This document shows, in pieces, positions 1-38,879 of a stretch of DNA of 38,879 nucleotides. The position numbers and the translations under genes are program-made. The notes under the pieces were generated by a model, which searched no databases, was not told the origin of the DNA, and saw nothing but the letters and a program-made list of their open reading frames with translations. How positions within the stretch are numbered: position 1 is the first letter of the stretch; each line of letters opens with the position of its first letter. This stretch comes from a virus: positions 1 to 38,879 of the IMG/VR virus record IMGVR_UViG_3300029448_000124; one strand, 5' to 3'.

Positions 1-215
1 AAATCAAAAATATCAGCACCATTTCGTTTAAGACTACTAATAATATTCCTAAAGTTTATAGCTTGTTCTGCACTTATAAATTCATTTCCTTCTGCAGCAT
101 TTACATAATTCAAATACTCATCTAGATAATCATTTAAGCCGTCTAAAGTGGTAGCCGTAATACTAAATTCTGGTAATGAAAATATTTGTAAGCCTTCTAC
201 GTCTTGTTCTAAACC
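1..215. repeat. Left copy of duplicated segment (matches 38052-38266)
   Basis: The first 77 bases of the window are identical to 38052-38128. The match continues with scattered differences to about base 215 and includes another long identical block around 110-180. The duplication lies inside coding sequence and encodes the LPEFSITATTLDG repeat and the stretch ending NGADIFDL. The window starts inside this copy. Confidence 0.9.
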
Positions 216-3200
216 TTTTATTATTTCTCTTGCTTCATTAAATTTTCCCGAATAATAATTTCTATCGTTTTTCCAAAACTCTCTATTTGTTTTTGCCCTT
301 AGTGCATCTTTTACCGTCTCTAACACTTCGGCTTTTTGTTGCTCTGTTAATGGACTGTTGGCTAATGTAACATTTTCGTAGTTGTCCATATACTCATTTA
401 TCCAAGAGCCTCTATCACCTTCCCTGTCTTCTGGTTCTGACCATAAATCGGCTTCTACATCATAGTTGTAACCCATGGAAGACATAGCTTCATTGTAGTT
501 AAAATCGGGTAATTGGTAAGTTTCTAAAGTTTCTAGTCTATCTTTAGCATCTTCTAAATTTGTATTTGCATCATTTAAAGCTTTTTGTCCCAGGACTAAT
601 TCAGATGCGCTATTGTATAAAGCATTATATTGCTCTTGATTAATTAATTCTGCATTTAAATCATTATCCAGAGCCGTTTGATATGCACTTAACGTACCAT
701 CTAAATCTTCAGCGGCTACGCCTTCAATAGTGAAATCTGGTAATGTATAGGTTTCTAGTTCTCCAATACGAGATTGTGCTGAAGCAATATCTTGTGTAGC
801 CTTAAATATATTAAATGAATTAGTAGCTAATGACTTTTCTAGTTCTCCTTGCTCTGACGTGATTTCTCCATTTGTAACTCTATTATCTATATCTTGATTG
901 AAAGCATCTAAGTCATTTTGTGCGCCCTCTATATCAGTAGCAGTAACCTCAAAGTTATCTAGCTCTACGTATAAATCTGCTTTAAGTTTTGCTATTTCTA
1001 TCTCATTTTCACCTAATTTTTCATTAGCAGTAGTTAATTCAGTATTAGCCTTATCGTATTCTTCTAAGTATTTTTTATAGTCCTCGTAATATTTATCTCT
1101 TTCTCCTGTTACAATTTGTAAATCTGTTTCTGATTGTGCTAAATTTGCTACATTGACTAATATTTGGTCTGCATTCTCTATAGATAAAAAGTTTCCAAAC
1201 TCTTCTGTAGTGCCTTTCCTAACTTCATCAACAAAGTTTTGCATATAAGCACTTCGGTCTTCTGCATCCAAATATGCAATTACATTAAACTCTGGTATTT
1301 CGTAGGTTTTTATTTTATCTATTCTAGCCTGCAAATCAGCAGCAGTCTGTGATGATGCACCTTCACGTATTTCTGCGGCTTCTTTAGCATTTTCTGCTGT
1401 AGTAATTGCTAAACTTTTAGCAGTTAAAGTATTTATTTCCGATAGCTTTGAATTGTAAATAGCATTTGCTAAATCAATTTCATATTGCTCTTGTCCTTCA
1501 GATAAGTCGGCTGCAGTAATTTGATTTAATCTAGTCTGCAATTCAGTATCTAAATCAGTTATGTTATTAGCAGTTACTGTAAATACACCTAAGTCTATAA
1601 AGTCACTTGTAGCTTCTTCTTGTGCTTGTAAAATTAATTGCTTAGATGTAGAATCTAAATTTAAAAAAGCTTCTCTTGATTCAAATAAATTGTAAGCACT
1701 ATCTTTTAAAAATTCTCTTGTTTGAAAATCAAAACCCGAAGCATCAATAGTATCTAACCTATCTTGATATGCGTTATTTAAATCATTAAAGTTATCATAT
1801 TCTATAACATTAAAGTCTGGAAAATTATAAAATTGCTGTACTTCATTAGTATCTGTAAAAGGTGTTTCTGTTAATTCAGTAACAATGCTATCAAAATTAA
1901 TAGGTTCTATTAAATCATAAAACTCTGAAACTTCCCCAAAGCTAGTAGAAAATGGAGAACTGCCTGCCCATTCTCCAAGTAAACCTTCGGTTGTCGTATT
2001 TGGCTGTCCAGGGATTACACCATATCTTATGTAATCTCTTTCTGCTGCGGCATCTTCGGCGCTATATTGTGCAACTCCTAGAAAAAAACTTTTGTCTATT
2101 TCAGCTGCCTCTGACATAGTTAATTTTCCTTGTTCTATCATTGCTTTTAAATACGAATGCCTAGAATCTTTGTCTAAAAGAAAAGATGGATTACGGTTTG
2201 GAATCATTTGACCCACTCCACCATATCCTCTTATAATATCAAACCGACTTAAAGAAGGTAACTCAGCTTTTTTGTAACGTAAGCTTTTTATGCTAGGTTC
2301 ATCAAAAAAGTATTGGTTATTTGCGGTATCTAATTTATCGGGGTCAAATTGTTCCTGCATTCCATAATACAAATCAGTAATCGTTTGGTATCCACCTGCA
2401 TTAGGTTCGCTTAAAAAATAAGGTCTTGACTCATATACATCTTGTACTACTAAATCTTCTAAATAAACGATGTTATCTAGTGCGACTTCAAAATTTGCAT
2501 CTACGTAACCTTCATCTTGTAATAAATCTTGTACATCTGGTAGATACCCTAACGCATCACGCATACCTGTTTGAAAGTTTTTAAATTCTTGCGTAGCTGT
2601 TTCGGGATTTTGTTCGTAATAATAGTCATACGCTCCTGTTGAAAGCCTTTCTAAACTATTATCATCTGTTGCTTTTTGAGTCATCCAAGCATCAGCATCT
2701 TCTTTAGTAAAACCTGCGTATTTTTGTAAAAAATAGGAGCTTACTTCGTCTTGTATAAATCTGTTCGCTTGTGAAGTAGCATCAAGACCAGAAAAGTAAA
2801 TATGGTTAGTGAGGTCCTCTGGAGGATTAACAAGTTTTATTAACTCAGAAAGTTCTAGTTTCCCAGTTTGTACTAATTCTTTTATTACCCTTCCATTCTT
2901 TTTAAGATTAGCGTTAAAACTAGTTTCTGTTAGTTTGTTAGATTGCCTTAAATCATTGGCAGTAATACTAGGAAAATTATACAAATCATTTTCCGTGCCA
3001 GGATTATTTACAAGTCTACTAGCATCGTAAGAAAAATTTAAACCTGTAAGATTGTCGTATATTAAATCTTGTCCTTCTGAATCAGTTCTATATTCAAATT
3101 GTCTTGCGGTTACTGGAACATCTGGTAGTTGCACAACATAAGCATCATCGTCAGCATAATTTTCCGCAAAATAAGTTACATCAGATGTAGTATCAAAACC

Positions 3201-5429
3201 TACTCCATCTGTAAATGCTTCTCCAGTTTCTCCGTCACTTATTAAGTAATTGAAACCTGCTTCGTATTCTGTATCAGTAATCTCTGGAAAAGCTTCTTTT
3301 AAATTAGCTACTGTGTCTGAATCAAAATAATACTCATTGTTTTCCCCAAATGTAACTTGTCCTGGGTTATTAATTTTTAATTCGTTTTGTAAATATTCTT
3401 TATATTCATTAAAACTGTATGGTGGTACTCCAAAAGCACTTAATGTTTGATTTACTTCTTTTAATCTTTCGGATAATTTTGTGTCATCGGATAATAAATC
3501 ATTAAATTCATCTCTATCAATAGAACTTTGTACTTGGTCGTTTAATACAGAAATTAATTCCGCAGGTTGCATTCTATCCATATCCTTGCCAGTAATTTCT
3601 TTTACATAATTATTTAAAGAAGATAAATATTTAGCAGGTAATCCACCTTCACTAGTGTCATCTAATAAAACATTTAATCCAGTCTTTCCAGAAGGTTGAT
3701 ATTCATCGCTTTCAAGATAATCATCTAATGTGCTTCTCCACCAAGATATATCCGATGCTTGTACGTCATTAGGGTCTATGCCTTTATTTTCTAAATACCT
3801 AACCCAATCTTTTGCACTATTAGGTCCTAAACCGCGAGAAATTCCATCAAGAAGAAAAGATACTGGATAACCATCAAATATTGCTTGGTCAATAATTAAT
3901 TTAGACAAATTAGGTCCGAATATTTTTTGTCCCGCTACACCAAGTCCTTGAATATATGCAGTAATATTATCAAGTTGTCCTACTATACCAGTTCTTCTAT
4001 TTGCTTCTATTCCTTCAAATTTACCAGCTTGAGATTGGTCTTGTACTGCATCTAAAACATTACCCTCTAATAAAACATCAGCAATGTTTTGAAATACATT
4101 TTCTCCAGTTGGGTCAAATTTTCCTAATTGAGGTCCACCCATTTCTATTAAAGACAATGTTGCTTCTGGGTTATGAAAAGGCATTAAATATTTAGCCTTA
4201 TCCGCTATTCCTTCTAATATTGGATTTCCATCTTTATCAATAAATTTTTGGTTTAGTATTTCAGCAGCGACTTCGTGTAAATTAATATTAGGCAAATCAA
4301 ATCCTAACCCAGTCATTTTATTTACTACTCTTTCTATTCCATTTACTACGTAATTATAACCTGCTTGAGTAACATACAAACTTGTTCCTACCCCCGCCAT
4401 ACCTAATAAATCTAAAGCTATTGCTACAAAGTAACCAGAGGGAGTAACAGTTTCTCCTGTGTTTTGTCCAAATGTTAAATCTATTGTATCAATAGAATTT
4501 TGCACATCCTCTTCAGTAACTTCATTAATTCCATATCTAAAGTCTTCTATTAATCCTAAATCATTTATAGGTTTACCATAATTTGGATTATCAAACTCTT
4601 TTCCGTATTCTGGCATATCTGGAGTATAGCCAAAGCTTTCATCATTTATATATGTTTCATTTTCGTCAATTACGCTAAATCTACCATCGTACGCTTCAGA
4701 TTCTATAAAATCCCGCATTGTATTGTTAAAAATACTTTCTGCATTTTGTAATGCTGTTTCAGATTCTAATTCTCTATCGTGATATGTTCCTACACCCACC
4801 ATTCTACCAGTTGCTGTGTCGAATTCAGTTTGAGATGTTAAAAATCCTCTAAATTTAGAAATTTGATTACTGATACTATCTTGAGTGCGTTTTTGCTCTT
4901 GATACTCTAACTCTGCTCTTGCGGCAGCTAAAGCCTCTAATTGTCCATCTAGGCTTGTAGCGCGTTCATTAATTGCTCTTCTACGTGCAATAGATGGATT
5001 TGAACTTGGATTTATATTGTCTCCGTTTTCTAACGCATCAACAGCGCCTTCTCCAAAAGCATCAGTTATAAAACCATCTGCATCTACGCCAATATTATTT
5101 AAAAAATTTCTATCTTCTGGAGTTAAAAAATCTTGAAAAAGGTCTTTATCTAATACATCAAATATACTACCAACTTCATCAAACCCAATAGTAAATCCTC
5201 CATATTCTGGTTGAGAACCTATGGTAAAAGAACTATCGAAACTATTTTCATCGAATGGTGTATATTCAGGAGTTTCAACTGGCATCCACCAATGACTATT
5301 AGCTCCTAGACTACCAAAACTGGTAGAAGTTGGATTATCGTAAGCACCAAAACCTGCACCTGGACCACCTCCAAATAAAGACTGAGAGTCTACGTAATTC
5401 CCATAGTCACTTGTTACGCTTTCAGCCAT
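1..5429 (-). CDS. Giant repeat-containing virion (ejection-type) protein, N-terminal part, runs off the left edge
   Basis: The frame is open from the ATG at 5429 to base 1, giving 1809 residues with no stop, so the gene is partial. The N-terminal part is Gly/Ser-rich, followed by a coiled-coil-prone Arg/Ala/Glu segment (about residues 135-175) and one hydrophobic stretch near residue 330. The last third has repeats of roughly 70-130 residues, each opening with a variant of LPDFTV (LPDFTIEG, IPEFNVIA, LPDFNYNE, LPEFSITA) and followed by acidic, Asn/Gln-rich helical sequence. It starts one base after the tail fibre gene. Being last in the virion block and so large fits an ejected internal protein or long tail appendage; this is inference, as I recognise no catalytic domain. 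The frame continues in phase into the right edge of the window, so it is probably the front of the gene ending at 35405. Confidence 0.85.
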   Translation of the reverse strand, partial: MAESVTSDYGNYVDSQSLFGGGPGAGFGAYDNPTSTSFGSLGANSHWWMPVETPEYTPFDENSFDSSFTIGSQPEYGGFTIGFDEVGSIFDVLDKDLFQDFLTPEDRNFLNNIGVDADGFITDAFGEGAVDALENGDNINPSSNPSIARRRAINERATSLDGQLEALAAARAELEYQEQKRTQDSISNQISKFRGFLTSQTEFDTATGRMVGVGTYHDRELESETALQNAESIFNNTMRDFIESEAYDGRFSVIDENETYINDESFGYTPDMPEYGKEFDNPNYGKPINDLGLIEDFRYGINEVTEEDVQNSIDTIDLTFGQNTGETVTPSGYFVAIALDLLGMAGVGTSLYVTQAGYNYVVNGIERVVNKMTGLGFDLPNINLHEVAAEILNQKFIDKDGNPILEGIADKAKYLMPFHNPEATLSLIEMGGPQLGKFDPTGENVFQNIADVLLEGNVLDAVQDQSQAGKFEGIEANRRTGIVGQLDNITAYIQGLGVAGQKIFGPNLSKLIIDQAIFDGYPVSFLLDGISRGLGPNSAKDWVRYLENKGIDPNDVQASDISWWRSTLDDYLESDEYQPSGKTGLNVLLDDTSEGGLPAKYLSSLNNYVKEITGKDMDRMQPAELISVLNDQVQSSIDRDEFNDLLSDDTKLSERLKEVNQTLSAFGVPPYSFNEYKEYLQNELKINNPGQVTFGENNEYYFDSDTVANLKEAFPEITDTEYEAGFNYLISDGETGEAFTDGVGFDTTSDVTYFAENYADDDAYVVQLPDVPVTARQFEYRTDSEGQDLIYDNLTGLNFSYDASRLVNNPGTENDLYNFPSITANDLRQSNKLTETSFNANLKKNGRVIKELVQTGKLELSELIKLVNPPEDLTNHIYFSGLDATSQANRFIQDEVSSYFLQKYAGFTKEDADAWMTQKATDDNSLERLSTGAYDYYYEQNPETATQEFKNFQTGMRDALGYLPDVQDLLQDEGYVDANFEVALDNIVYLEDLVVQDVYESRPYFLSEPNAGGYQTITDLYYGMQEQFDPDKLDTANNQYFFDEPSIKSLRYKKAELPSLSRFDIIRGYGGVGQMIPNRNPSFLLDKDSRHSYLKAMIEQGKLTMSEAAEIDKSFFLGVAQYSAEDAAAERDYIRYGVIPGQPNTTTEGLLGEWAGSSPFSTSFGEVSEFYDLIEPINFDSIVTELTETPFTDTNEVQQFYNFPDFNVIEYDNFNDLNNAYQDRLDTIDASGFDFQTREFLKDSAYNLFESREAFLNLDSTSKQLILQAQEEATSDFIDLGVFTVTANNITDLDTELQTRLNQITAADLSEGQEQYEIDLANAIYNSKLSEINTLTAKSLAITTAENAKEAAEIREGASSQTAADLQARIDKIKTYEIPEFNVIAYLDAEDRSAYMQNFVDEVRKGTTEEFGNFLSIENADQILVNVANLAQSETDLQIVTGERDKYYEDYKKYLEEYDKANTELTTANEKLGENEIEIAKLKADLYVELDNFEVTATDIEGAQNDLDAFNQDIDNRVTNGEITSEQGELEKSLATNSFNIFKATQDIASAQSRIGELETYTLPDFTIEGVAAEDLDGTLSAYQTALDNDLNAELINQEQYNALYNSASELVLGQKALNDANTNLEDAKDRLETLETYQLPDFNYNEAMSSMGYNYDVEADLWSEPEDREGDRGSWINEYMDNYENVTLANSPLTEQQKAEVLETVKDALRAKTNREFWKNDRNYYSGKFNEAREIIKGLEQDVEGLQIFSLPEFSITATTLDGLNDYLDEYLNYVNAAEGNEFISAEQAINFRNIISSLKRNGADIFD
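567..735. repeat. Second duplicated segment (matches 38711-38879)
   Basis: Bases 567-650 are identical to 38711-38794, and similarity continues to the last base of the window. It encodes the block FTIEGVAAEDL to LVLGQKALNDA in this copy and the FTVEGVVAEDL version at the right end. With the 1-215 pair it gives the protein order A-B...A'-B', a tandem duplication of about 250-280 residues. Confidence 0.88.
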
Positions 5430-19108: not shown

Positions 19109-19637
19109 CTATTACCTCCGCGTCTATTATTTTGAGTCTTTCCTTGGCTTTCCTTATTGTTTCTTCGTAATCTTCTTGCGTTACTACATTCCTGCTTTCA
19201 GTTATTGAACTTGCTTCGCCCCTAGCAGTTAATGCTTGGCGCGCAGCGTTAGCTTTGGCTATACTTATTTCTTTTATATCTCTTGGTGTAGGTTCGTATT
19301 CTCCAGTATGTATCTTTTCTCTGACAGTTTCTATCAAATCTTCTTCTAAACTCTCTAAATTTATATAACTTTTAGCTGATAATTGACCTCCTAGTTCTCT
19401 GAATGCGTTCTTATAGTCCGCATAATCGACTAATGTATTGATTATAGTCCCTCGGTCAAAGCCATATTTACGTACCATAGCTGTCTGTGACACTCCAATA
19501 GCGTGCAAATATAGTATTTTAGCTACCTTTTCGGGCGCGTGCCTAGATAAACTGCGCACTTTCGCAAGTTCTTTACTCTCAGCAACTTGCGTTATTGCTA
19601 ACTTTATCTCTTCTTCTAACTCTTTTTCTGCACTCAT
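19095..19637 (-). CDS. terS: Terminase small subunit
   Basis: This 180-residue protein has an N-terminal helical region, then a helix-turn-helix-like segment at residues about 49-70 (VSQTAMVRKYGFDRGTIINT), then a central helical domain (INLESLEEDLIETVREKI) and an acidic C-terminal end. This is the usual layout of small terminase subunits, which recognise the phage packaging site. It is the first gene of the leftward late operon. Upstream, 19640-19651 holds a perfect palindrome that overlaps its leader. Confidence 0.82.
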   Translation of the reverse strand: MSAEKELEEEIKLAITQVAESKELAKVRSLSRHAPEKVAKILYLHAIGVSQTAMVRKYGFDRGTIINTLVDYADYKNAFRELGGQLSAKSYINLESLEEDLIETVREKIHTGEYEPTPRDIKEISIAKANAARQALTARGEASSITESRNVVTQEDYEETIRKAKERLKIIDAEVIDAEE

Positions 19638-19698: not shown

Positions 19699-19740
19699 AC
19701 AATAGTATAATGGGCAGCACCTTGTCAAGCCCTATAGGGC
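19699..19740 (-). promoter_or_regulatory. Candidate late promoter with abutting palindrome
   Basis: On the minus strand a perfect TTGACA (19728 to 19723) is followed by a possible -10 TATTGT at 18 bases (19704 to 19699); a better match, TATACT, lies at a too-short 13 bases. The perfect palindrome GCCCTATAGGGC (19729-19740) touches the -35 on its upstream side. The small terminase start is about 60 bases downstream. A sigma-70-type promoter with an operator is the simplest reading. Confidence 0.55.
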
Positions 19741-19929
19741 ATCTAATTTTTTAGGGGGCAATATATATATATATATACCGAACGCGTAGCAGGAAGTCGA
19801 CCCCCGCCCCCCCTCGCGCGCGCGCACGGGCGTTACGCTACGCGCACACACGCGCGTATAATGCCCCGCGCATTACGCGTGTACTATTAATTTATTTAGG
19901 CGAGCTAGAACGTATTTGTGGCGCGGTTT

Positions 19930-19954
19930 GGGTTTGGGTTTGGGTTTTGGGGGG
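19930..19954 (+). other. G-quadruplex motif
   Basis: Four G tracts (19930-19932, 19936-19938, 19942-19944, 19949-19954) are separated by loops TTT, TTT and TTTT. This is a textbook four-tract quadruplex sequence with telomere-like GGGTTT units, on the plus strand at the divergence point. The last tract runs directly into the first GGGTACCC palindrome. Confidence 0.8.
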
Positions 19955-20043
19955 TACCCGCTTTTTGCTTTTTGGGGGTACCCGCTTCCCGCTTGTTTTG
20001 GGGTACCCGTAAAAAAGTTAAATGATTGCTTGACGGGGTACCC
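19952..20043. repeat. Cluster of four GGGTACCC palindromes
   Basis: GGGTACCC occurs at 19952-19959, 19976-19983, 20001-20008 and 20036-20043. Each is preceded by extra G and followed by a G (GGGGTACCCG), and the centres are 24-35 bases apart. They lie just upstream of the first early gene. Unlike the downstream intergenic copies, they are not followed by long T runs, except for a TTTT after the last. Confidence 0.85.
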
Positions 20044-20103
20044 GTTTTATGATTCTATCCTTTCAACGTCGCAATTAAGCGGCGCAATTAAACCAAAAAA
20101 ATA

Positions 20104-21096
20104 ATGAATCAAACAGACTCAAAATTGCTAGCCAATACGGCTATGAATCCGCTTAAAACCATAGGTTTGGAGCTAGAATATCACGATTACAGCAACAGCG
20201 CGAAGTCGCATATGCTTGCGCGCAAATTGAACGAGCGCGGGCTAAACGTTAGCATCAATCTCAACTCGCATCTCGGCGGGTTTACGGGCGAGGGCGACGG
20301 TTGGCACATCAAGCGCGACGGTACCCGCGGGCGCTTTCCAATACGCGAGATTGTATCAACGCCAATGTGTGCTGAAAAGTTGTTTTTTCAGTTATACATT
20401 TTGACTGAAGTAATCCGCGAACTTAACGAGGAAAATTTGCAAGCTTACCGCGCTGAAAATGCGGAACGCGAGGAAATATTTAGCGTTGATAGGGATTGCG
20501 GTTTGCACGTGCATTTTGACGCGAAAAGATACAACGAAAAGCGCTTGCGTTATATGGTCAATAATTGGGTTAAAAATGAGAATAATTTTCTCAGTATTAT
20601 TGCCCCAAGTCGACGCAATAACGGGTTTTGCCGCACGTTTGCGCCGCATTTAGACGACAGTTTAAACTATATGCAATGCGAGGGCGAGCGCTACCATCAC
20701 TTAAATTTAAACGCTTATCGCAAGCATAAGACGATTGAAATTAGAAGCCATCAAGGGACGCTAAATTTTGCGAAAATCGTTTATTGGACGGCCTTTTGTC
20801 AAGGTATCGTTGAAAGCTCGCTTACAAGCGTAAAGCGTACCGCGGGTTACAATAACCCAATGTGTAACTATTTGTTACAGGGCAAGTGGGCTACCCGCTA
20901 CCGTCCAAGCAATGACGCGCCTTGGGGCTTGCTTGCTAAGAACGACGCGAGCCAAGCGCTTCTCTTTTACGTGAGCGCGCGTATGAATCACTTTGGGGTA
21001 CAAGCCGCGCCCGTTATCTACGACCGCAACGAGGTACAAACGACCGCGCCAAGCGCGGTTGACGTTGTCCGCGATGGGGATTTATGCAGCGCGTAA
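20104..21096 (+). CDS. Amidoligase (Amidoligase_2 family, glutamate-cysteine-ligase-like fold)
   Basis: This 330-residue protein has motifs of the phage/bacterial amidoligase family (Pfam Amidoligase_2): GLELEY at 21-26, a W-H-I-K-x-D segment at 67-72, REIVSTP at 81-87, DCGLHVHFDA at 131-140, YHHLN at 197-201 and TIEIRSHQGTL at 210-220. Such enzymes use ATP to join a carboxylate to an amine, and have been proposed to modify peptides, proteins or cell-wall material. It is the first early gene, and the next large gene encodes a glutaminase/cyclotransferase fusion, which fits a shared pathway. Codon use is much richer in CGC and GCG than in the late genes, suggesting transfer. No clear ribosome-binding site precedes the ATG, which follows an A-rich stretch. 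One GGTACC copy lies at 20320-20325. Confidence 0.88.
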   Translation: MNQTDSKLLANTAMNPLKTIGLELEYHDYSNSAKSHMLARKLNERGLNVSINLNSHLGGFTGEGDGWHIKRDGTRGRFPIREIVSTPMCAEKLFFQLYILTEVIRELNEENLQAYRAENAEREEIFSVDRDCGLHVHFDAKRYNEKRLRYMVNNWVKNENNFLSIIAPSRRNNGFCRTFAPHLDDSLNYMQCEGERYHHLNLNAYRKHKTIEIRSHQGTLNFAKIVYWTAFCQGIVESSLTSVKRTAGYNNPMCNYLLQGKWATRYRPSNDAPWGLLAKNDASQALLFYVSARMNHFGVQAAPVIYDRNEVQTTAPSAVDVVRDGDLCSA

Positions 21097-21108
21097 AACT
21101 CAAAATAT

Positions 21109-21144
21109 GGGTACCCCTAATCAAAAAGGGGGTACCCCCTTTTT
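21109..21144 (+). terminator. Two GGGTACCC hairpins after the amidoligase gene
   Basis: A GGGTACCC at 21109-21116 is followed by a 22-base perfect palindrome at 21123-21144: five A, five G, TA, five C, five T. The second can fold as a G/C stem flanked by an A/T stem with a T run, like an intrinsic terminator in either direction. It lies 12 bases beyond the amidoligase stop. Confidence 0.7.
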
Positions 21145-21430: not shown

Positions 21431-21436
21431 CACAAG

Positions 21437-21459
21437 CCCCGCAGAAATGCGGGGTTTTT
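21437..21459 (+). terminator. Intrinsic terminator with GAAA tetraloop
   Basis: CCCCGCA (21437-21443) pairs with TGCGGGG (21448-21454) around a GAAA loop and is followed by TTTTT. This is a classic rho-independent terminator on the plus strand, closing the amidoligase/small-gene unit. It is unrelated to the GGTACC palindromes that follow. Confidence 0.9.
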
Positions 21460-21469
21460 CTTTGCCTGG

Positions 21470-21795
21470 AATTTCACAGGAGCAAAAAGGGGGTACCCCT
21501 TTTTTTATTACTGGGAGAAATCTGGGAGCAAAAACTGGAGTCACCAGGTAGTCCCCAGAACGGGAGCAAAAGGGGGGTACCCCTTTTTTTTATTTCACCT
21601 GGAGGATTTTCTTTCTGTGTCTGGACGAACCAGGAGGACTAGAAACAGAACCAGAACGAGGGGGGTACCCCTTTTTTTGTTTCACCTGGAGAAATTAATG
21701 GCGCATATCCTGTGGCTGTGAACGAAGGGGGGGGGTACCCCTATTTTTCAAATGAAGGCTGGGCTGTTAACGAAAGGGGGGTACCCTATTTTTTG
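21470..21795 (+). repeat. Array of five GGGGTACCCC hairpins in a noncoding gap
   Basis: Palindrome cores lie at 21490-21499, 21574-21583, 21662-21671, 21732-21741 and 21779-21786. Most are preceded by a purine run (AAAAGGGG or GAAGGGG) and followed by a T run, so each could act as a terminator. The spacers also repeat: TTTCACCTGGAG occurs after the second and third copies, a GGAGCAAAA block precedes the first two, and GCTGTGAACGAA / GCTGTTAACGAA precedes the last two. A frame over 21712-21930 only translates these repeats and is not annotated. The whole gap 21431-21954 has no supported gene. Confidence 0.85.
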
Positions 21796-21954: not shown

Positions 21955-22938
21955 ATGTGTTTAATCATACACAAGCCACAAGGCAAACGTATTCCGCAGG
22001 AGTACATCAACAACGCGAAGCGTATCAATCCGCACGGATTCGGTTACACTTACCTCGACACGGGCGAGACACACCGTACGCTAAGTTACAACAAGGTCGA
22101 CAAGATTCTTGATACAGACAGACCGCTCGTTGCGCACTTCCGCTACGCTACGGTCGGACTCGTGAACAAGCAGAACGTACACCCGTTCCCGATTACCAAC
22201 GCGCCGAGATACGAGATTTACTCGAACGGCACGATTGACGGGTACGGCAACATTACTTGCAGCGACATTCGCTTCGTTGCAGAGCGCGTACTTGGTAATA
22301 AGAAACGCGAAAAGTGGGTACCCTTTCTTAAGAAAACGGACACCCGATTCGCTATCGTTGACACCCTAACGGGCAAGGTCAAGCGCGTCAATACGTGGCA
22401 CCTACGTAACGGGGTTTACTATTCAAAAGATAATTGCTTCGGCAGATACCGCGTCGCCGTGTACGGTACGCTCAAGCAAGGCTTCGGCAACTCGCACTTG
22501 CTCAAGACAAGTAAGTTTGTAGAAGCAGGTAGAACAAAAAGCAGGTACCCCCTTGTAGTTGACGGGCTTCCGTATCTGTTCGAAGAACAAGGGCGCGGTC
22601 AACAAGTACGCGTCGAGGTGTACGACGTATCGCACCGCGTGCTAGCTAGGCTAGACAGTCTAGAGGGACACCCTGCATTTTACGAGCGCAAGCAAATCGA
22701 CATCGAGCTTGACGATTGGAGCCAAACCAAGGCGTGGGTATACTTCGCCCGCAATGCTTCCTGCACAAGCGAGGACGGACACCATCACGCGGAATATTTC
22801 GGCGCCAAGGTTAACCGTTATTGGGAGAAGCCAACCGAGCAAGAACTACGCGAACTGAACGGAGACGATTGGTTCGTTGAAGACGAGGAAACTCAAGCCA
22901 ACTACGAGATGTCTCGTAGAGATTACTTAACACAATAA
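21955..22938 (+). CDS. Fused class II glutamine amidotransferase and gamma-glutamylcyclotransferase
   Basis: Two domains are visible in 327 residues. Residues 1-160 look like an Ntn-type class II glutamine amidotransferase: Met is followed by Cys2 (MCLIIHKP), the expected nucleophile after Met removal, then HFRYAT at 61-66 and NGTIDGYG at 91-98. Residues 165-290 look like a gamma-glutamylcyclotransferase/AIG2-type domain: VAVYGTLKQGFGNSHLL, VDGLPYLFEE and LARLDSLEGHPAFYERKQ. The first would release ammonia from glutamine; the second would cleave or cyclise gamma-glutamyl amides. Next to an amidoligase this suggests a route that makes and trims amide-linked glutamyl groups. AAAGGA lies before the ATG. 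GC-rich codons match the amidoligase. GGTACC copies lie at 22317-22322 and 22544-22549. Confidence 0.85.
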   Translation: MCLIIHKPQGKRIPQEYINNAKRINPHGFGYTYLDTGETHRTLSYNKVDKILDTDRPLVAHFRYATVGLVNKQNVHPFPITNAPRYEIYSNGTIDGYGNITCSDIRFVAERVLGNKKREKWVPFLKKTDTRFAIVDTLTGKVKRVNTWHLRNGVYYSKDNCFGRYRVAVYGTLKQGFGNSHLLKTSKFVEAGRTKSRYPLVVDGLPYLFEEQGRGQQVRVEVYDVSHRVLARLDSLEGHPAFYERKQIDIELDDWSQTKAWVYFARNASCTSEDGHHHAEYFGAKVNRYWEKPTEQELRELNGDDWFVEDEETQANYEMSRRDYLTQ

Positions 22939-24110: not shown

Positions 24111-24145
24111 GGGGGTATCTCAGAAATGGGGTACCCCCTTTTTTT
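24111..24145 (+). terminator. Terminator built on a GGGGTACCCC palindrome
   Basis: GGGGGTA (24111-24117) can pair with TACCCCC (24132-24138), or the GGGGTACCCC at 24128-24137 can fold alone; both end in TTTTTTT (24139-24145). This shows directly that the palindrome family can take the place of a terminator. It separates the accessory cassette from the next transcription unit. Confidence 0.8.
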
Positions 24146-24174: not shown

Positions 24175-24209
24175 TTGACAGAGGCACAAGATATTGCGAT
24201 ACTCCAACT
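24175..24209 (+). promoter_or_regulatory. Sigma-70-type promoter driving a leaderless start
   Basis: Perfect TTGACA (24175-24180), a 17-base spacer, then GATACT (24198-24203). Six bases later is the ATG at 24210, so the predicted first transcribed base is the A of that ATG. There is no ribosome-binding site between the -10 and the start. Confidence 0.75.
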
Positions 24210-24467
24210 ATGAACGACCCATATATTAAATTAATAAAACAAAAAGAAAGGGAATCCAAAGACGGATTCAAACGCGCAAGGGAAATAGTGAAAGCTTTTG
24301 CTAAATACATAAAGTTTCCTAGCGAGAAAGAAATCAATAAGTACAGAACCCCGCGCAACAATAGGCTTGACGCGGTGCTTGAGTACCTTACTGATACTTA
24401 CATATCAAAAGAACAATTAGAACACAAAGAAAGGATTAAAGAAAATGAGCAATATGACAAGCGATAA
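24210..24467 (+). CDS. Small helical early protein, probably leaderless
   Basis: I choose the ATG at 24210 (MNDPYIKLIKQKERESKDGF) rather than an upstream start, because the upstream stretch holds a terminator and a promoter. The 85-residue product is helical and strongly charged, with FAKYIKFPSEKEINKYRTPR and a C-terminal Glu/Lys-rich tail. It is the first gene of the replication/recombination operon. It has no known family; a DNA-binding or regulatory role would suit its charge and position but is a guess. Confidence 0.7.
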   Translation: MNDPYIKLIKQKERESKDGFKRAREIVKAFAKYIKFPSEKEINKYRTPRNNRLDAVLEYLTDTYISKEQLEHKERIKENEQYDKR

Positions 24468-24924: not shown

Positions 24925-25374
24925 ATGGAATATATAACAATTCAAACCAGGTACGCGGTAGAATTTGGGGTACCCCAAGCCATTGCTTTACATACAATCA
25001 CTTACTTTGTACTCAAAAATAAAAATGAAAACAGAAATAAAAAAAATGGAAAATATTGGACATTCAATTCCTACAAGGGGTGGCGAGAAGCTATGCCTTT
25101 CTACACCGAGCATCAAATCAGAACTGCGTTGCGTTCATTACGGGACAAGGGAGCAATCCTTACGGGGAACTATAATAAAATGGGGTACGATAAAACCTAT
25201 TGGTATACGCTTGCACCTCGATTGTTACAAGAAGCAGAAGCATCGGAATATTGGCGAAGTCGTATTAAAAAAGCTAAGTCAAAAGCTATTAATGCCACCG
25301 ACAAATCTGCCGCACCCACCGACAAATTTACCTCACCAATACCAAACAAGTATATAGAAATAGAACCGTATTAA
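24925..25374 (+). CDS. Winged-helix DNA-binding protein, likely replication accessory
   Basis: This 149-residue protein shows the phage winged-helix pattern often labelled replication protein: YAVEFGVPQAIALHTITYFV (10-29), WTFNSYKGWREAMPFYTEHQ (45-64), IRTALRSLRDKGAILTG (65-81), then NYNKMGYDKTYWYTL, the wing. The C-terminal tail is Lys/Thr-rich. It lies upstream of nuclease, annealing protein and helicase genes. A 14-base GGGGTACCCC-centred palindrome (24965-24978) sits inside its early codons. Role as an origin-binding or helicase-loading protein is inferred. Confidence 0.75.
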   Translation: MEYITIQTRYAVEFGVPQAIALHTITYFVLKNKNENRNKKNGKYWTFNSYKGWREAMPFYTEHQIRTALRSLRDKGAILTGNYNKMGYDKTYWYTLAPRLLQEAEASEYWRSRIKKAKSKAINATDKSAAPTDKFTSPIPNKYIEIEPY

Positions 25375-25433
25375 TGAGAACTATAAAATTACTAACTAAA
25401 AGAACTAGGGTAAAACCTAAAAAGAAAAAATAA
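25374..25433 (+). CDS. 19-residue basic peptide (tentative)
   Basis: A tiny frame starts by TAATG overlap with the winged-helix stop and ends one base before the next ATG. It encodes MRTIKLLTKRTRVKPKKKK. The exact fill of the gap and the strong basic bias, like the 27-residue peptide at 21347, make it worth listing, but length alone gives little support. Confidence 0.35.
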   Translation: MRTIKLLTKRTRVKPKKKK

Positions 25434-25434
25434 C

Positions 25435-26196
25435 ATGGGAGGACATTTTTACGATTGCAAGGGTACCCCTTATTTAACCGAAGCAAGAACACCCGTTCAA
25501 GCTCGTAAGCTCAAAGCTTATCCATCAGTAACTACTGTACTTAGTATTCAGATGAATGATTTCTTACATAACATTTGGATGCCGAGAAAGTTAGTTGAAC
25601 TAGCAAGAGACAACCCAACAATGCCCGTGCAAGAGATACAAGAACTCAAGTACGGACAACGTGTTTGCCCTGCTACTGGTAATAAAATAAGCTCATCATC
25701 ATTTGGTACATCAGTTCACGCTAGACTTGAAGAGGTATTGAATCATCGGATATTTGGCGAAGGATTAGAAAACGAGGGTACCCCCTTTGACGATTGGGCA
25801 GAACCTTTTATAGATTTCATAGACAAGAATAACATTAAGCCACTTGCTACTGAAAAGATTGTCTACTGCGACAAGATGAAAAGCGCAGGGTCAGTTGATT
25901 TGATTGCAGAAGTAGACGGCAAAGTACATTTGTTTGATTACAAATGCAGAGATACAAAAGGAACTGGAGGTAAGTTTTACGAAGAGAAGGACTGCACTCA
26001 GTTAGCGATTGAATCTAAATGGCTGCAGCAATCTATGGACTTGAGTTACGAGCCAATGATTACGAGCGTCTGTATATGCACAGAAAGCAAGAAACATTAT
26101 CACAAAAATTGGACTAAAACTCAGATGCGCAAAGCAGTCACGCGCTTCAGATATTTGAACAGATTGTACAGAATAGATTGGATGAAGGCGAAATAA
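25435..26196 (+). CDS. PD-(D/E)XK exonuclease (RecB/Cas4-like)
   Basis: This 253-residue protein has the nuclease layout of phage RecB/Cas4-type exonucleases: GTSVHARLEE (91-100), a Glu at 140, SAGSVDLIAEVDG (150-162) with Asp155, and FDYK (167-170) as the catalytic DxK, followed by a Gln motif in CTQLAIES (187-194). Such enzymes resect DNA ends to feed single-strand annealing proteins, and an Erf-like gene lies downstream. Copies of the palindrome at 25461-25468 and 25776-25783 encode Gly-Thr-Pro. Confidence 0.85.
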   Translation: MGGHFYDCKGTPYLTEARTPVQARKLKAYPSVTTVLSIQMNDFLHNIWMPRKLVELARDNPTMPVQEIQELKYGQRVCPATGNKISSSSFGTSVHARLEEVLNHRIFGEGLENEGTPFDDWAEPFIDFIDKNNIKPLATEKIVYCDKMKSAGSVDLIAEVDGKVHLFDYKCRDTKGTGGKFYEEKDCTQLAIESKWLQQSMDLSYEPMITSVCICTESKKHYHKNWTKTQMRKAVTRFRYLNRLYRIDWMKAK

Positions 26197-26447
26197 TGGG
26201 TAAATACGATTCAGCTATTATTATGTCTAGATGGCACGTAGATTTAGACGCGGAACAAGAAGAATATTTAGGAAGAAAGCTCACAGATGGAGAGTGGCAC
26301 ACACTTAGAGCAATGCTAGAGGGAGACCTTTATCGTTCAAGTGTCATAGAAAAGTATGTAAAATATTCGAGGTACTTTATTAAAGAACTTTCCAAAGGTA
26401 GAACCCCCGAAGATATAATGAGCAAACCAATTAGAATTATAAAATGA
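26196..26447 (+). CDS. Small early protein of unknown function
   Basis: I choose the ATG at 26196 (MGKYDSAIIMSRWHVDLDAE), which overlaps the exonuclease stop (TAATG) and has AAGGCG upstream; an in-frame start 18 bases earlier is possible. The 83-residue product is helical, with YLGRKLTDGEWHTLRAMLEG. It overlaps the next gene by ATGA. I recognise no family. Confidence 0.65.
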   Translation: MGKYDSAIIMSRWHVDLDAEQEEYLGRKLTDGEWHTLRAMLEGDLYRSSVIEKYVKYSRYFIKELSKGRTPEDIMSKPIRIIK

Positions 26448-26791
26448 ATTTTTGCGAAGACTTTAAGCACGACTTAGAAGTAGGACTTGTCGCCGAAAAA
26501 GAGATAGCAGATATGCTAGAGAACTCTACGGTAGAAGTTAAACGAGACATTATTGCTAAGACAACGGGGAGAATATTTGTTGAGTACAGTTATAAAGGTA
26601 GACCTAGTGGTATATCAAAAACGCAAGCAGACTTTTATTGCTTTGTTGTAGGGGACTTAATTATTTTTTACGAAACCAAGAAGCTTAAAAATTTAATTAG
26701 ACCTATGCTTGGAACCGATGCAGATATATGCGGAGGAGATAACGACCAAAGCAGAGGCATACTACTACCACTTAAAAAATTAATACCGTGA
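26444..26791 (+). CDS. PD-(D/E)XK-like nuclease (small phage type)
   Basis: This 115-residue protein contains VEVKRD (30-35), GRIFVEYSYKGRPSGISKTQ (42-61) and AD at 62-63. The order Glu-Val-Lys, then Val-Glu-Tyr, then x-P-S-G-I-x-x-T-x-A-D is found in small phage endonuclease-like proteins of the restriction-endonuclease/resolvase fold. It may act on recombination intermediates. The assignment is by motif memory and moderate. It starts inside the previous stop. Confidence 0.65.
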   Translation: MNFCEDFKHDLEVGLVAEKEIADMLENSTVEVKRDIIAKTTGRIFVEYSYKGRPSGISKTQADFYCFVVGDLIIFYETKKLKNLIRPMLGTDADICGGDNDQSRGILLPLKKLIP

Positions 26792-26952
26792 AGAAATACG
26801 AAATATTTTATAAGCATACAGATATGAACCCCGACTATACGGGTTACACTACAAAATGGGCGAACGATGAAAAACAAGCCAAGAAGTATGTTACAAAAAA
26901 TAAACCTTACATAAGAGTTACTGCAGTTAATGAAATACGTACCCCAAACTAA
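26788..26952 (+). CDS. 54-residue protein with GTG start
   Basis: A frame starting at GTG overlaps the previous stop (GTGA) and reads VKKYEIFYKHTDMNPDYTGY, then a helical Lys-rich stretch and a beta segment PYIRVTAVNEIRTPN. It overlaps the endonuclease VII start by 23 bases. The start-stop coupling, the position in a gapless operon and plausible secondary structure support it. Function is unknown. Confidence 0.6.
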   Translation: MKKYEIFYKHTDMNPDYTGYTTKWANDEKQAKKYVTKNKPYIRVTAVNEIRTPN

Positions 26953-27370
26953 ACTAAAACAGTGGAGAGAAGACAACGCCCCAGCAAAGTGTCCAATTTT
27001 GGGGGTACCCCTAAATGATGCAGTTGTAGACCACGACCACGATACTGGAATGATACGCGGAGTATTGCACAGACAAGCAAATGCTTGGGAGGGAAAGACT
27101 TACAACGCTTGGAAAAGATACGCTAAAAACAATAGTGACCTGGGGTTTATTGATTCCCTGGAGAACATGGCGAAATATTTAAAGAAAGGGGGTACTCAAT
27201 ATTTGCACCCTACTGGATTAGTACAACTCGGTAAACGTTTTGGTAGACTTAAAAAAGAAGAACAAGTGTTTGCATTAAAAAAGTTTGGAGTAAAAAAAGA
27301 TGAAATTAATTCTTGCAATAACTCTGCAGACAGAGTAAAACTTTATAAAAATGTATTAAAAAATTTATGA
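26930..27370 (+). CDS. Endonuclease VII-type (HNH) recombination nuclease
   Basis: This 146-residue protein has the endonuclease VII core CPILGVPLNDAVVDHDHDTG (21-40) and GVLHRQANAWEGK (44-56). The DHDH (34-37), His47 and Asn51 fit the His-Me finger active site. The T4 enzyme has four zinc-binding cysteines; here I see only Cys21 in this region, so the zinc site seems lost or changed. Such enzymes resolve branched DNA before packaging. The palindrome at 27002-27011 encodes LGVP within the core. Confidence 0.85.
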   Translation: MKYVPQTKLKQWREDNAPAKCPILGVPLNDAVVDHDHDTGMIRGVLHRQANAWEGKTYNAWKRYAKNNSDLGFIDSLENMAKYLKKGGTQYLHPTGLVQLGKRFGRLKKEEQVFALKKFGVKKDEINSCNNSADRVKLYKNVLKNL

Positions 27371-27804
27371 ACATCAAAGAAAAATTAAACATATTGCAGA
27401 CAAAACTGCACGTCCCTAAAGGACAATTTAATAAATTCGGGAACTATAAATACCGTTCCCTCGAAGATATAACACTAGCAATCAAAGCACCATTAGAAGA
27501 ATTAAAATGTATTCTTTTAATGCAAAGCGTAATTGAAGAGATAGGCGGCAAGAACTATGTGAAAGCCACCGTAACATTAGCCGACTGCGAGAGTGACGAA
27601 AGTATTTCAGTTACTGCATACGCTCGCGAAGCAACAGAATCTAAGGGAATGTCGCCCGCGCAAATGACGGGTAGTTCAGATTCCTATGCAAAAAAATACG
27701 CGTTAGGTGGTCTATTAAATCTTGACGAAAGCCAAGATGACGATGCCACAAATACACACGGCAAAACAATTTCTAACACTAAACCAAGAAAGGATATAAT
27801 ATAA
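27367..27804 (+). CDS. Erf-family single-strand annealing protein
   Basis: This 145-residue protein matches the Erf superfamily: KFGNYKYRSLEDITLAIKAP (23-42), a central beta sheet (KNYVKATVTLADC) and GSSDSYAKKYALGGLLNLDE (about 102-121) followed by DDDATN. These proteins coat and anneal complementary single strands during phage recombination. The exonuclease at 25435 would generate the substrate. The start overlaps the endonuclease VII stop by ATGA. Confidence 0.88.
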   Translation: MNIKEKLNILQTKLHVPKGQFNKFGNYKYRSLEDITLAIKAPLEELKCILLMQSVIEEIGGKNYVKATVTLADCESDESISVTAYAREATESKGMSPAQMTGSSDSYAKKYALGGLLNLDESQDDDATNTHGKTISNTKPRKDII

Positions 27805-28028
27805 TGTCAGATTATGATGATACTAATACCTTCGTACTATTCTCGGAAGAGGTAGAAGAGGGGTCAAAAAAACCAAACTGCACGGGTAAGATTAACATCG
27901 ACGGTAAGCAGATGCGCCTAGCAGGGTGGAGTGGCGAATCCAAAAACGGAAGACGCTACGTACGCGGAACGTGGTCGGAGTATAAAGCTAAGACTACTGA
28001 AACAGCTAAAGAGGAGGCACCGTTTTAA
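27804..28028 (+). CDS. Small acidic protein, DUF736-like
   Basis: This 74-residue protein has a short beta core, KPNCTGKINIDGKQMRLAGW followed by SGESKNGRRYVRGTW, which resembles the DUF736-type small proteins with an OB-like pattern. The N-terminal and C-terminal ends are acidic. Placed directly after the annealing gene with TAATG overlap, it might act with single-stranded DNA, but this is a guess. Confidence 0.6.
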   Translation: MSDYDDTNTFVLFSEEVEEGSKKPNCTGKINIDGKQMRLAGWSGESKNGRRYVRGTWSEYKAKTTETAKEEAPF

Positions 28029-28372
28029 TGACGGAGCTGCCCGATAGTGGAGCAAGGACTGCATTCGATACGGGTGCAGTCCGTGACTCTATGCTAGGAA
28101 AAGGGGTACCCTCAATGATTCCTACTTGTGCAATCAAAGCAATGGCTCGACGATTCGAGGACGGCGCAAGCAAGTACGGTAAGGATAATTGGAAAAAGGG
28201 TATACCTACATCAAGGTACTGCGATGCAGCTTTCAGACATTTGATGGCGTGCAAAGATGGCGAAACAGATGAAGACCATTTTGGAGCAGTCCTTTGGAAT
28301 ATGGCGTGTTGGTTAGAAACCAAGCGTATGATTAAAAATAAAGAGTTACCTACAGAATTAAACGACTTATGA
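28028..28372 (+). CDS. DUF5664-type dATP/dGTP diphosphohydrolase-like protein
   Basis: This 114-residue protein matches my memory of the DUF5664 (dATP/dGTP diphosphohydrolase N-terminal) family: DSGARTAFDTGAVRD (6-20), IPTCAIKAMARRFEDGASKY (31-50), GKDNWKKGIP (51-60), RH at 70-71, GETDEDHFGAVLWN (78-91). The conserved Glu, His and Asp residues suit a metal-dependent nucleotide hydrolase, and a role in shaping nucleotide pools during replication is likely. GGGTACCC at 28104-28111 encodes GVP. Confidence 0.75.
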   Translation: MTELPDSGARTAFDTGAVRDSMLGKGVPSMIPTCAIKAMARRFEDGASKYGKDNWKKGIPTSRYCDAAFRHLMACKDGETDEDHFGAVLWNMACWLETKRMIKNKELPTELNDL

Positions 28373-35404: not shown

Positions 35405-38400
35405 TTAAAATCCCAGTCCATATAAATATCTTTCAAAAGAATCCTTATCTGCATAATTTACTGAGTTAGAAGCATTCATATTGAAAGAATTTGTATTTAT
35501 ACCAGAACGTCCTCCACCAAATATATTAGTTATACCACCAAATATATCTTTAACAGTACCGAAAGCTTGCTGTGCTGTACTCAATCCCAGGCTAATATTA
35601 TCTACTGTTTGTTTAGCTTGGTTAAGGTCATTCAGTATGCTTTTCGCTCTACTTGGTTCTTTCAATGCTACAGCTGTTTGATAGTCTCTATCAAGTTGAG
35701 CAACAGCCATTTGAGCTTCTTGTAGTCTTTGTTGATTTGCGTAGTCTACAGTACCTAAGTCCATAATACCTGCAATATTAAACGGTGTAGTAACATCCCC
35801 TACTCCTGCTCCATATGGGCTATCTGTACCTATGGTACTCATCAAGTCTCCATATAAACCTCTCTCTGCATTCATAGCAGCTATTTGCTGATTAGATGCT
35901 GTTGCGTCACGTTGGTCTCTAAATTGTGATTCTTCTCCAATTCTATTAGCTAAAGTAATAGGGTCGAAATCCCTACCTCTTTGTGCGCCAAAAATAGCAG
36001 AACTTTGTTCTAATCTAGATTGTTCAGCAGGGCTTAAATCTCCTCTTGCTTGGTCTGCACTACGTCTAGCTATCTCTTGCTGTGCTTGTAGTGCTTCAGT
36101 AGCTCCTGGATATAGCTCTTCTATTTGTTTCCTATAAGGGTCGCCAAACTCAGCCATAAGGTCTAAGTCTGATTGTCTTTTAAGTCTAGTAAGTTGGTCA
36201 GTTAAATCTTGTTGCTTGCCTGCAAGACCTGCTTGCATATCGAAAGCATCGTCTGCTTGTCCAAGCATAAATTTATTGACTACTTCTTGGAATTCTGCAT
36301 CGGCTAATCCTCGGCTTTTGCCTGTAGGGAACAAGTCTCTTGCTCCCGCTTCGCCTAATAACATTTCCGCTAATTGATAAGCTGGGTCTAGTTTTGCCAT
36401 ATAGTTTCCTGTTAGTATACCACTTGTATCAACACCTCCTCCTATAGTGCCATATTGGTCTGCGTAATTACCGTCGTCTACGTAATCTAAAAAGTCTCCT
36501 TGTGAAGATTCATCTGTTTCATCTTCGTTAATAGGGTCTGGAATAATTGCATAGTGTCCTTCTTTGGGCTGTATTGGTGTACGCCTTTCAAACTCAAAAT
36601 CAAATATACCTCGTGCGCCTTCCATTGCGCTAAAGAAATCAGTTATTCCAAGCATTCCAGATACTACATCTCCTTTTAGCCCTTCTTCGTATTCTGAAAA
36701 TAAGTTAGATATATCTTCTTGCCTTAACAATCCTTTAGTATCTTCAACTGCAAATTCTGGTAGCGTATAAGTACCTTGTAATCTAGCTCTTTCGGCATCA
36801 AATAAACTCTCTAGATTTCCTTGTTCAGTAAGAATATCAAAGTCCTCTGGGAAATATTCTTGGTCGCTAAACATTGTAAACCTATCTCGTGCCGCTTGCT
36901 CCATTTCTGCTAACTCTGCAAGTGATGAAGCAGGTGTAACACCAAAGTCTGGCATTGTATAAGTAGGTAGTATACCTTTTCTTCGTGCCGTGTACTCAGT
37001 TTCTAAGTCCCCTAAGAAACCATAATACTCACTTAGGCTAATATACCCACTATCTTTGTATTCCTCTAACCTTGTTAGCTCGTTTTGGTACGCAGTATCT
37101 ATTTCCGTAAAGTCATCTCCTTCTTGTAAGTCGCCATATACACTAAAGTCTGGCAACTCATACGTAGGGGCTATACCTTTTCTAGCATCTTCATAAGATG
37201 TTTGTAGGTCATTTAATTGAGTAATATAGTCTGATGCACTTATATATCCTTGTCGAGCATTTAATGTTAATTCATCAAAAGCAGTATTATATGCTGTATC
37301 TATATCCTCGAAAGTTCCTCCAGGCTCTAACTGCCCATATACTGTAAAGTCTGGTGCTTCATATACAGGAGTAATATCTCGTTTTTTAGTATCGTAAGCA
37401 GATTCTATCTGAGCCTCAAAGGAATCATATTCTTCTCTAGTGATGTAATCACTATCTAAGAAACCTTGTAGTTCGTCTATAAAAGATTGTTTCTCTGAAT
37501 CAAGGTTTGTAAACCCACCTTCAGCATCAAGTTCAGATACAGTAAATTCTGGCAATGTATACGCAGGTACAAGTGTTTCTTTCCTTGTATTGTACGATTC
37601 ATTTAAGGCTGATACATTTGCATCGTATTCTTCTTGAGTAATATATTCGTTACCTAAGAAACTATCTAATGTAAACATTGCTTGTTCATAAGATGTATTT
37701 AATCCAGTAAGGTCTCCGTCTGCTACTACATTAAAGTCTGGTGCTTCATATGTAGGTACATATAAATTTTCTCTACGCATTTCTGCCATACTTTCGGCAA
37801 ATGCTATCTGAGATGCTTTCATCTCTTCATCTAAGTCGGAGTCATTGATGCCCTGTATATAGGATTCAAGACCTGCATCTAAGTCACTAATATCATCATA
37901 TAAAGTAACATCAAAACCACTACCAATTACAGATATAGTTCCTGTTAAGTCTAATATGTCTTGTTCTTGTTTCTTTATATCTTCATCTAATCCTGTATTT
38001 ACTCCTTTAAGTCTATCTATTTCACCTTGTTTAGTTTCGTTTGCCGCCTCTAAATCAAAAATATCAGCACCATTTCGTTTAAGACTACTAATAATATTCC
38101 TAAAGTTTATAGCTTGTTCTGCACTTATGTTTTCATTTTCTTCGGCAGCATTTACATAAGTCAAATACTCATCTAGATAATCATTTAAGCCGTCTAAAGT
38201 GGTAGCCGTAATACTAAATTCTGGTAATGAAAATGCTTGTAAGCCTTCTACGTTTTCTCTTAAACCTGCTATTGTTGTATCAGTATCAGTTTTTAAGGTA
38301 TCGTATTGCGCTGTTTTAATTTTAGAATTATACAACCAAGCTTGTTTTGATTGCCAATACTCTACAGCGTATCTGTAGTCGTCCATAAGGTCATCTATTT

Positions 38401-38879
38401 GCGCTTCAGTAAGAACGGAGTTTCCTTCGGCATCGTAAAACTCCTCTCTTTTCATAGATACTAATTGTTCCCTTAAAGATTTTCTGTACTCATAATCAGT
38501 ACCTTCCCACGTTACAGGGACATCTGGCATTCTTAAAACTTCTGTGCCATCAACAACTTCCTCGTAATAACCAATTTCTTGTGATTGTATTTGGTTTCTA
38601 AAATTATCCCCCGTTACCCTCATGTCGGGTAACACGTAGTCTGTATATTCTGCCTGTAAGGCATCGTACTTATCGTTTAATCTTTTTTCTTTATCTGAGT
38701 AATCTGCTTCTGCATCATTTAAAGCTTTTTGTCCCAGGACTAATTCAGATGCGCTATTGTATAAAGCATTATATTGCTCTTGATTAATTAATTCAGCGTT
38801 TAAATCTTGAGTTAAAGCTTGTTGATATGAATTTAATGCAGTATCTAAATCTTCAGCGACTACGCCCTCAACAGTAAAG
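35405..38879 (-). CDS. Giant repeat-containing virion protein, C-terminal part, open at the right edge
   Basis: The frame is open from the last bases of the window to the stop at 35405, giving about 1157 residues; a Met at 38635 is internal, as coding similarity to 567-735 continues upstream of it. The first two thirds consist of about ten repeats of 60-80 residues with a Y-x-[LAM]-P-[DE]-F-x-V opener (LPEFSITA, APDFNVVA, LPEFTVSE, APDFTVYG, LPDFSVYG, MPDFGVTP, LPEFAVED), a middle GYISxxEY-like motif and an ExxYxxRRKGI-like end. The last 350 residues are Gln/Ala-rich, with SPAEQSRLEQSSAIFGAQRG and a Gly/Asn-rich tail. It likely continues the gene starting at 5429. Role as an ejection or long structural protein is inferred. 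Confidence 0.85.
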   Translation of the reverse strand, partial: FTVEGVVAEDLDTALNSYQQALTQDLNAELINQEQYNALYNSASELVLGQKALNDAEADYSDKEKRLNDKYDALQAEYTDYVLPDMRVTGDNFRNQIQSQEIGYYEEVVDGTEVLRMPDVPVTWEGTDYEYRKSLREQLVSMKREEFYDAEGNSVLTEAQIDDLMDDYRYAVEYWQSKQAWLYNSKIKTAQYDTLKTDTDTTIAGLRENVEGLQAFSLPEFSITATTLDGLNDYLDEYLTYVNAAEENENISAEQAINFRNIISSLKRNGADIFDLEAANETKQGEIDRLKGVNTGLDEDIKKQEQDILDLTGTISVIGSGFDVTLYDDISDLDAGLESYIQGINDSDLDEEMKASQIAFAESMAEMRRENLYVPTYEAPDFNVVADGDLTGLNTSYEQAMFTLDSFLGNEYITQEEYDANVSALNESYNTRKETLVPAYTLPEFTVSELDAEGGFTNLDSEKQSFIDELQGFLDSDYITREEYDSFEAQIESAYDTKKRDITPVYEAPDFTVYGQLEPGGTFEDIDTAYNTAFDELTLNARQGYISASDYITQLNDLQTSYEDARKGIAPTYELPDFSVYGDLQEGDDFTEIDTAYQNELTRLEEYKDSGYISLSEYYGFLGDLETEYTARRKGILPTYTMPDFGVTPASSLAELAEMEQAARDRFTMFSDQEYFPEDFDILTEQGNLESLFDAERARLQGTYTLPEFAVEDTKGLLRQEDISNLFSEYEEGLKGDVVSGMLGITDFFSAMEGARGIFDFEFERRTPIQPKEGHYAIIPDPINEDETDESSQGDFLDYVDDGNYADQYGTIGGGVDTSGILTGNYMAKLDPAYQLAEMLLGEAGARDLFPTGKSRGLADAEFQEVVNKFMLGQADDAFDMQAGLAGKQQDLTDQLTRLKRQSDLDLMAEFGDPYRKQIEELYPGATEALQAQQEIARRSADQARGDLSPAEQSRLEQSSAIFGAQRGRDFDPITLANRIGEESQFRDQRDATASNQQIAAMNAERGLYGDLMSTIGTDSPYGAGVGDVTTPFNIAGIMDLGTVDYANQQRLQEAQMAVAQLDRDYQTAVALKEPSRAKSILNDLNQAKQTVDNISLGLSTAQQAFGTVKDIFGGITNIFGGGRSGINTNSFNMNASNSVNYADKDSFERYLYGLGF
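38052..38266. repeat. Right copy of duplicated segment (matches 1-215)
   Basis: Identical to bases 1-77 over its first 77 bases, then diverged but alignable to about 38266. It encodes the LPEFSITATTLDG repeat and SSLKRNGADIFDL, here followed by EAANETKQG, which is the sequence missing beyond the left edge. Confidence 0.9.
38711..38879. repeat. Right copy of second duplicated segment (matches 567-735)
   Basis: Identical to 567-650 over 84 bases, then similar to the window end. In the other copy the next bases encode LPDF, so the sequence expected to follow the right edge encodes that motif, not the NGADIFDL found at the left edge. Confidence 0.88.

Follow-up and report, generated by a model that had tools for sequence, protein, structure and literature searches.

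Cluster A mycobacteriophages such as L5 and Bxb1 carry 24-34 stoperators per genome, most of them intergenic (PMC3029335, PMC5712189). In L5, a temperate phage, these sites are asymmetric 13-bp sequences to which a known HTH repressor binds, and in phages of this type one operator overlaps the early promoter Pleft and the consensus varies among relatives (PMC3029335, PMC5712189). In the temperate Bacillus phage SPbeta, the master repressor MrpR binds a few copies of the 15-bp element SPBRE, which in silico analysis had revealed well before MrpR itself was known (PMC10516654). Cluster K mycobacteriophages carry SAS/ESAS repeats ahead of many genes, with an inverted-repeat component and no assigned function (PMC3203893).

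We analyzed a 38,879-nucleotide stretch of viral DNA from IMG/VR (the window), and found 19 copies of GGGTACCC compared with a mean of 0.10 and a maximum of 2 in shuffled sequence. Eighteen copies lie within 19.95-28.1 kb, and one lies at 33970 in a virion gene. As in phages of the L5 type, more than ten copies of one site are dispersed, one copy sits at the main early promoter (20036, in the spacer of the predicted promoter P1), and the site sequence varies among related phages. Unlike the L5 type, the window's site has a dyad core of 8-9 bp and not a transcription-oriented asymmetric 13-bp sequence, several copies lie in genes, and neither a repressor nor an integrase was seen. By analogy, the sites appear most like L5-type stoperators in function; with a site that differs from the asymmetric 13-mer and no repressor found, we stopped short of filing them as an L5-type system. 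The sites resemble SPBRE as a repeated element at many promoters, but SPBRE is longer, has fewer copies and has a known binder. Similarly, they share with SAS/ESAS their placement before many genes and an inverted-repeat component, but SAS/ESAS lie at start codons, differ in sequence and have no link to an enzyme cassette. Our literature search found no paper describing the GGGTACCC motif or phage C75C1, a relative discussed below, and Rfam gave no match.

The array begins where the gene strand switches, with terS starting at 19637 (-) and an amidoligase gene, the first early gene, starting at 20104 (+). The original prediction had noted this switch and, beside it, an easily melted TA run, a CG/CA block, a G-quadruplex and four palindromes, and our analysis bore out each of these features. 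The TA run (16 nt at 19761) is the window's longest TA/AT run, the runner-up being 8 nt; a 22-nt alternating purine-pyrimidine run at 19839 (TACGCGCACACACGCGCGTATA) is also the longest of its kind, with a CG run of 14 nt at 19815; and the G-quadruplex motif starting at 19930 is the only four-tract G3+ motif on either strand of the window. The TA run, alternating run and G-quadruplex all lie within 19.76-19.95 kb, and next come the GGGTACCC palindromes at 19952, 19976, 20001 and 20036, in tandem on the same strand with spacings of 24, 25 and 35 bp. Sites 1, 2 and 3 of this P1 array (19951-19960, GGGGTACCCG; 19975-19984; and 20000-20009, all +) are kept in a sister genome, and site 4 (20035-20044, +) lies in the spacer between the P1 -35 and -10 elements. 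Given the 19 dispersed copies in the window, the four palindromes are the start of a dispersed set and not a local oddity. We read the odd DNA at this strand switch as the region from which an uncultured phage controls its early promoter. The prediction had proposed either a replication origin or a master control region; the latter is supported by the predicted P1 and its spacer site and by a conserved TTGACA on the late strand, and the former was not supported.

The remaining early-region copies, all on the plus strand, lie both between and inside genes. Two sites fall between the amidoligase gene and a 58-aa ORF (21109-21137), five form an array upstream of the predicted promoter P2 (21491-21786, with sites at 21491, 21575, 21663, 21733 and 21779, with a T run, in some cases interrupted, after each), and one (24129-24136) lies 81 bp ahead of the start codon of an 85-aa protein, p85. 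A further copy at 22316 is inside a gene that we term GATase-GGACT, and five more in-gene copies are spread over 24968-28111 (24968, 25461, 25776, 27003 and 28104). These six in-gene early copies compare with a mean of 0.18 and a maximum of 3 in 1000 synonymous-codon permutations of the window's early genes. In-gene copies exceeded synonymous shuffles in 7 of 7 lineages, with the observed count reached by 0 of 1000 shuffles in five, 1 of 1000 in L237 and 18 of 1000 in L223. The sister genome (L001/L086/L135) retains 17 of the 18 early-region copies intact; at the per-base identity of ~87% found here, an 8-mer would be kept by chance about one-third of the time. By the crude measure of per-base conservation, intergenic site cores (86/96) are slightly above background (1139/1316), and we preferred intact-site retention because gap placement depressed the per-base value.

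Intergenic copies share the flanks AAAnGGGT(n)ACCCnTTT, and the T run that follows downstream is the longer one. The site core is a dyad, and only the T-run flank is oriented. A G/C stem followed by a T run could act as a short intrinsic terminator or attenuator insulating early transcription units: a T run of at least 5 lies downstream of 58 of 149 intergenic copies, GGGGTACCCC copies fold at -10 to -12 kcal/mol, and a terminator scan flagged several sites. This T-run bias at intergenic sites would also be needless for a simple operator, and so counts against the operator reading set out below. However, where GGGTnACCC copies take these places they form hardly any hairpin (about -4 kcal/mol for two of the three tested) and still keep their GGGT/ACCC letters, a fixed loop is needless for a terminator, in-gene copies have no downstream T-run bias, and one copy is placed within a promoter spacer. 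Across relatives we did not find the stable hairpin with a free loop expected of terminators, and we consider such a role for the sites distinctly unlikely. An ordinary intrinsic terminator, GCCCCGCAGAAATGCGGGG followed by a T run, lies at 21434-21457 (+).

We instead propose that the palindromes are probably a dispersed early-gene operator system, read by a factor that binds DNA as a dimer and whose most likely effect is to repress the early promoter. Predicted promoter P1 (20030-20058, +) reads TTGACG-17-TTCTAT with a TG before the -10 element; its TTGACG is conserved and its -10 is weak. The fourth palindrome occupies the window's P1 spacer (TTGACG-GGGTACCC...) ahead of this extended -10, and TTGACG with a site in the spacer is also present in L001, L002, L005, L224 and L225. 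Across the relatives, the copy nearest the early promoter usually lies within its spacer. The same geometry is seen with TTGAAA-16-TATTAT in L007, TCGACA-16-TATTGT in C75C1 and TTGACA-18-TATTTT in L143, with poor P1 fits in L003, L067, L240 and L218. Across 16 lineages, the promoter-proximal site had a mean sigma70-like spacer score of 8.16, compared with 6.54 for shuffled flanks and 6.08 for other array sites, and none of 200 simulated means reached 8.16. Predicted promoter P2 (21871-21899, +; TTGACA-17-AATATT with TG) has a similar element in relatives, and the -10 of predicted promoter P3 (24175-24203, +; TTGACA-17-GATACT with TG) ends 6 nt before the p85 ATG. At most p85 loci a TTGACA/TTGCAA promoter-like element almost touches the ATG, so a leaderless mRNA is predicted in the window (24175-24212) and in most lineages. 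A permissive genome-wide promoter scan gave no significant association of sites with promoters (30 of 116, compared with 23 at random), and we therefore limit the operator claim to P1, P2 and P3.

In our model, a dimeric, sequence-specific protein would recognize AAAnGGGT(n)ACCCnTTT, and a copy bound between the -35 and -10 elements would block P1. Repression is the most likely effect at P1 because a dimer bound in the spacer would exclude RNA polymerase. Upstream arrays may aid this repression through cooperativity or looping, neighboring arrays would act on P1, on P2 before the GATase-GGACT gene and on P3 before p85, and copies between or inside early genes could serve as stoperator-like roadblocks or cooperative binding sites. 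We infer protein binding, its repressive effect and the activity of all three promoters from the computed properties of the sites.

A large-terminase scan of IMG/VR identified 292 related stretches, from which we kept 80 loci, and scans with amidoligase and GATase-GGACT alignments added further relatives. The only close named record was Phage C75C1 (L081). Where the window has its array, relatives show GGGTACCC, GGGTAACCC, GGGTCACCC/GGGTGACCC, or unlike repeats such as TTGCATTTGC. The site version switches by lineage, with GGGTAACCC in L026, GGGTSACCC in L067, L237 and L240, and a third version, GGGTAGCC(A/C), in L225, L230 and L226; L225-type sites are not palindromic. Copy numbers include 24 in 10 kb (L224), 19 (L237) and 18 in 5.2 kb (L240), and the layout recurs, with one array before the amidoligase gene, a second ahead of the GATase-GGACT gene and one or two copies upstream of p85. 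When we looked for GGGGTACCCCTTTTTT in other viral families, we saw arrays of at least three GGGTACCC only in contigs sharing genes with the window's phage group. L226 (G004) has seven CCTTAAGG palindromes in two clusters besides its GGGTAGCC sites, and L224 and L223 have three to four. In relatives that lack the amidoligase cassette, the same place holds TTGCATTTGC direct repeats (L012) or ATTAG/CTAAT-type inverted repeats (L020, L041).

In a whole-genome comparison, only three genes followed the motif. These encode the Amidoligase_2 protein (20104-21096, +; Pfam PF12224, E 6e-16); the GATase-GGACT protein (21955-22938, +), which combines a class II glutamine amidotransferase-like part with a gamma-glutamyl cyclotransferase (Pfam PF06094, E 9e-24, with a GATase_6 match below cut-off); and p85 (24210-24467, +), which is predicted to be helical and is preceded by a site, 67-181 bp upstream, at 17 of 17 loci. 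In the terminase-selected set, counting contigs whose upstream sequence was long enough, sites were present in 13 of 13 with the amidoligase and in 0 of 35 without it, and two further site-bearing contigs of this set end before the first gene. The corresponding Fisher value of 3e-10 overstates independence because the contig rows are related; on the TerL tree, the site/cassette label cannot be explained with fewer than 3-4 gains or losses, and on no bootstrap tree was a single change enough. On the operator reading, the sites travel with a specific enzyme cassette and come in no fewer than three sequence versions, which would make them a ready-made series for identifying the reader protein and its specificity code. 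The central base is mostly uniform within an array and the arrays look duplicated, as might be expected of a selfish, highly iterated palindrome spreading without function. Set against near-total retention in the sister genome, a fixed position in the promoter spacer and the perfect tracking of one cassette, we find that explanation very improbable. The amidoligases of L003, L007, L081, L067 and L002 share just 34-38% identity with the window's, although the terminases of these phages are far closer, which suggests that this gene was replaced.

The four tandem copies could also be read as origin iterons to which a winged-helix Rep binds, the TA run then serving for unwinding. The same-strand spacing of the copies and the adjoining TA run suit such an origin, as does a gene for a 149-aa winged-helix Rep-like protein (24925-25374, +; phrog_11233, E 5e-28, and fold), which itself contains the site at 24968. 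However, the repeats are not confined to an origin or a rep gene, but extend over 19.95-28.1 kb, into genes and to 33970. The Rep family was undetected in the motif-bearing L224, L223, L225 and G003, and L012 and L136 carry Rep but no such sites. GC skew, which the original prediction had put forward in cumulative form as a check, does turn locally at 20.0 kb, but it turns a second time at 30 kb, leaving arms of about 10 and 28 kb. Since both turns fall exactly at gene-strand flips, the skew tracks gene strand and may merely record transcription, from which it cannot separate replication. Overall, we give an iteron origin little credence. If the operator reading holds, the locus cautions that unusual DNA at a strand switch may mark a set of operators and not an origin.

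TerS and Rep were the only HTH-type proteins that we saw, and the distribution of the motif follows neither of them. Pfam and PHROGs scans identified no phage-encoded HTH repressor, with small unassigned ORFs remaining, and no integrase was recognized. We rejected TerS as the site binder, as the window's TerS has the same recognition helix as that of L012/L014, where the sites are missing, and Rep, as its window-type form is not detectable in four motif-bearing relatives and occurs without sites in two others. The p85 homologues are helical proteins of 80-90 residues and mostly acidic, and a fold search with p85 gave no match; we rejected it as a classical DNA-binding protein. No DNA-binding domain was recognized in any of the three cassette proteins (the amidoligase, the GATase-GGACT enzyme and p85), and we doubt that one of them is the reader of the sites, governing the cassette's own three promoters within a self-contained unit in lytic phages. 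A reader of this sort would represent a novel type of phage regulator, with a site specificity that changes between lineages.

A host regulator could instead bind these operators, so that host physiology and not a phage repressor would switch the cassette; the operator mechanism is the same as in our favored explanation. In favor of this, no phage DNA-binding-domain gene tracks the motif, and the motif versions could reflect different hosts. Against this, we found no host genome with such arrays, a scan of bacterial genome contigs for a host clue gave distant GATase domains only, and the regulator could just as well be a small phage protein that escaped detection. We regard control by a host regulator as possible but rather unlikely. 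If the operator reading is right, a widespread and mostly uncultured phage family runs its early genes by up to ~25 dispersed operators, without a recognized repressor or integrase.

On the late side of the strand switch, an element at 19750-19813 is kept across the wider phage family, including where TerS is only ~53% identical and the arrays are different or absent. It consists of TTTTTTAGGGG, the TA run, about 20 bp and then CCCCCGCCCCC. This TA run/C-tract element is older and family-wide, and probably separate from the palindromes, and its fixed place beside terS suggests that it is probably related to a late promoter or to packaging. The G-quadruplex and CG/CA block are present in some close relatives only, unlike the conserved TA run and C-tract. 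We predict a putative late promoter region at 19699-19744 (-), in which a 12-bp palindrome, GCCCTATAGGGC (19733-19744), abuts a late-strand TTGACA (19728-19723) that is conserved in close relatives. These relatives have a similar palindrome (GCCCCATAGGGC), and the palindrome may be a site for a late activator. Phage C75C1 has a DNA methyltransferase gene between its exonuclease and endonuclease VII genes (L081, 16131-17573), which the window lacks. One very long gene with internal PEFSITATTLDGLNDYLDEY-type repeats spans the ends of the window's record (1-5429 and 35405-38879), as in circular C75C1, and the window is probably a permuted circle.
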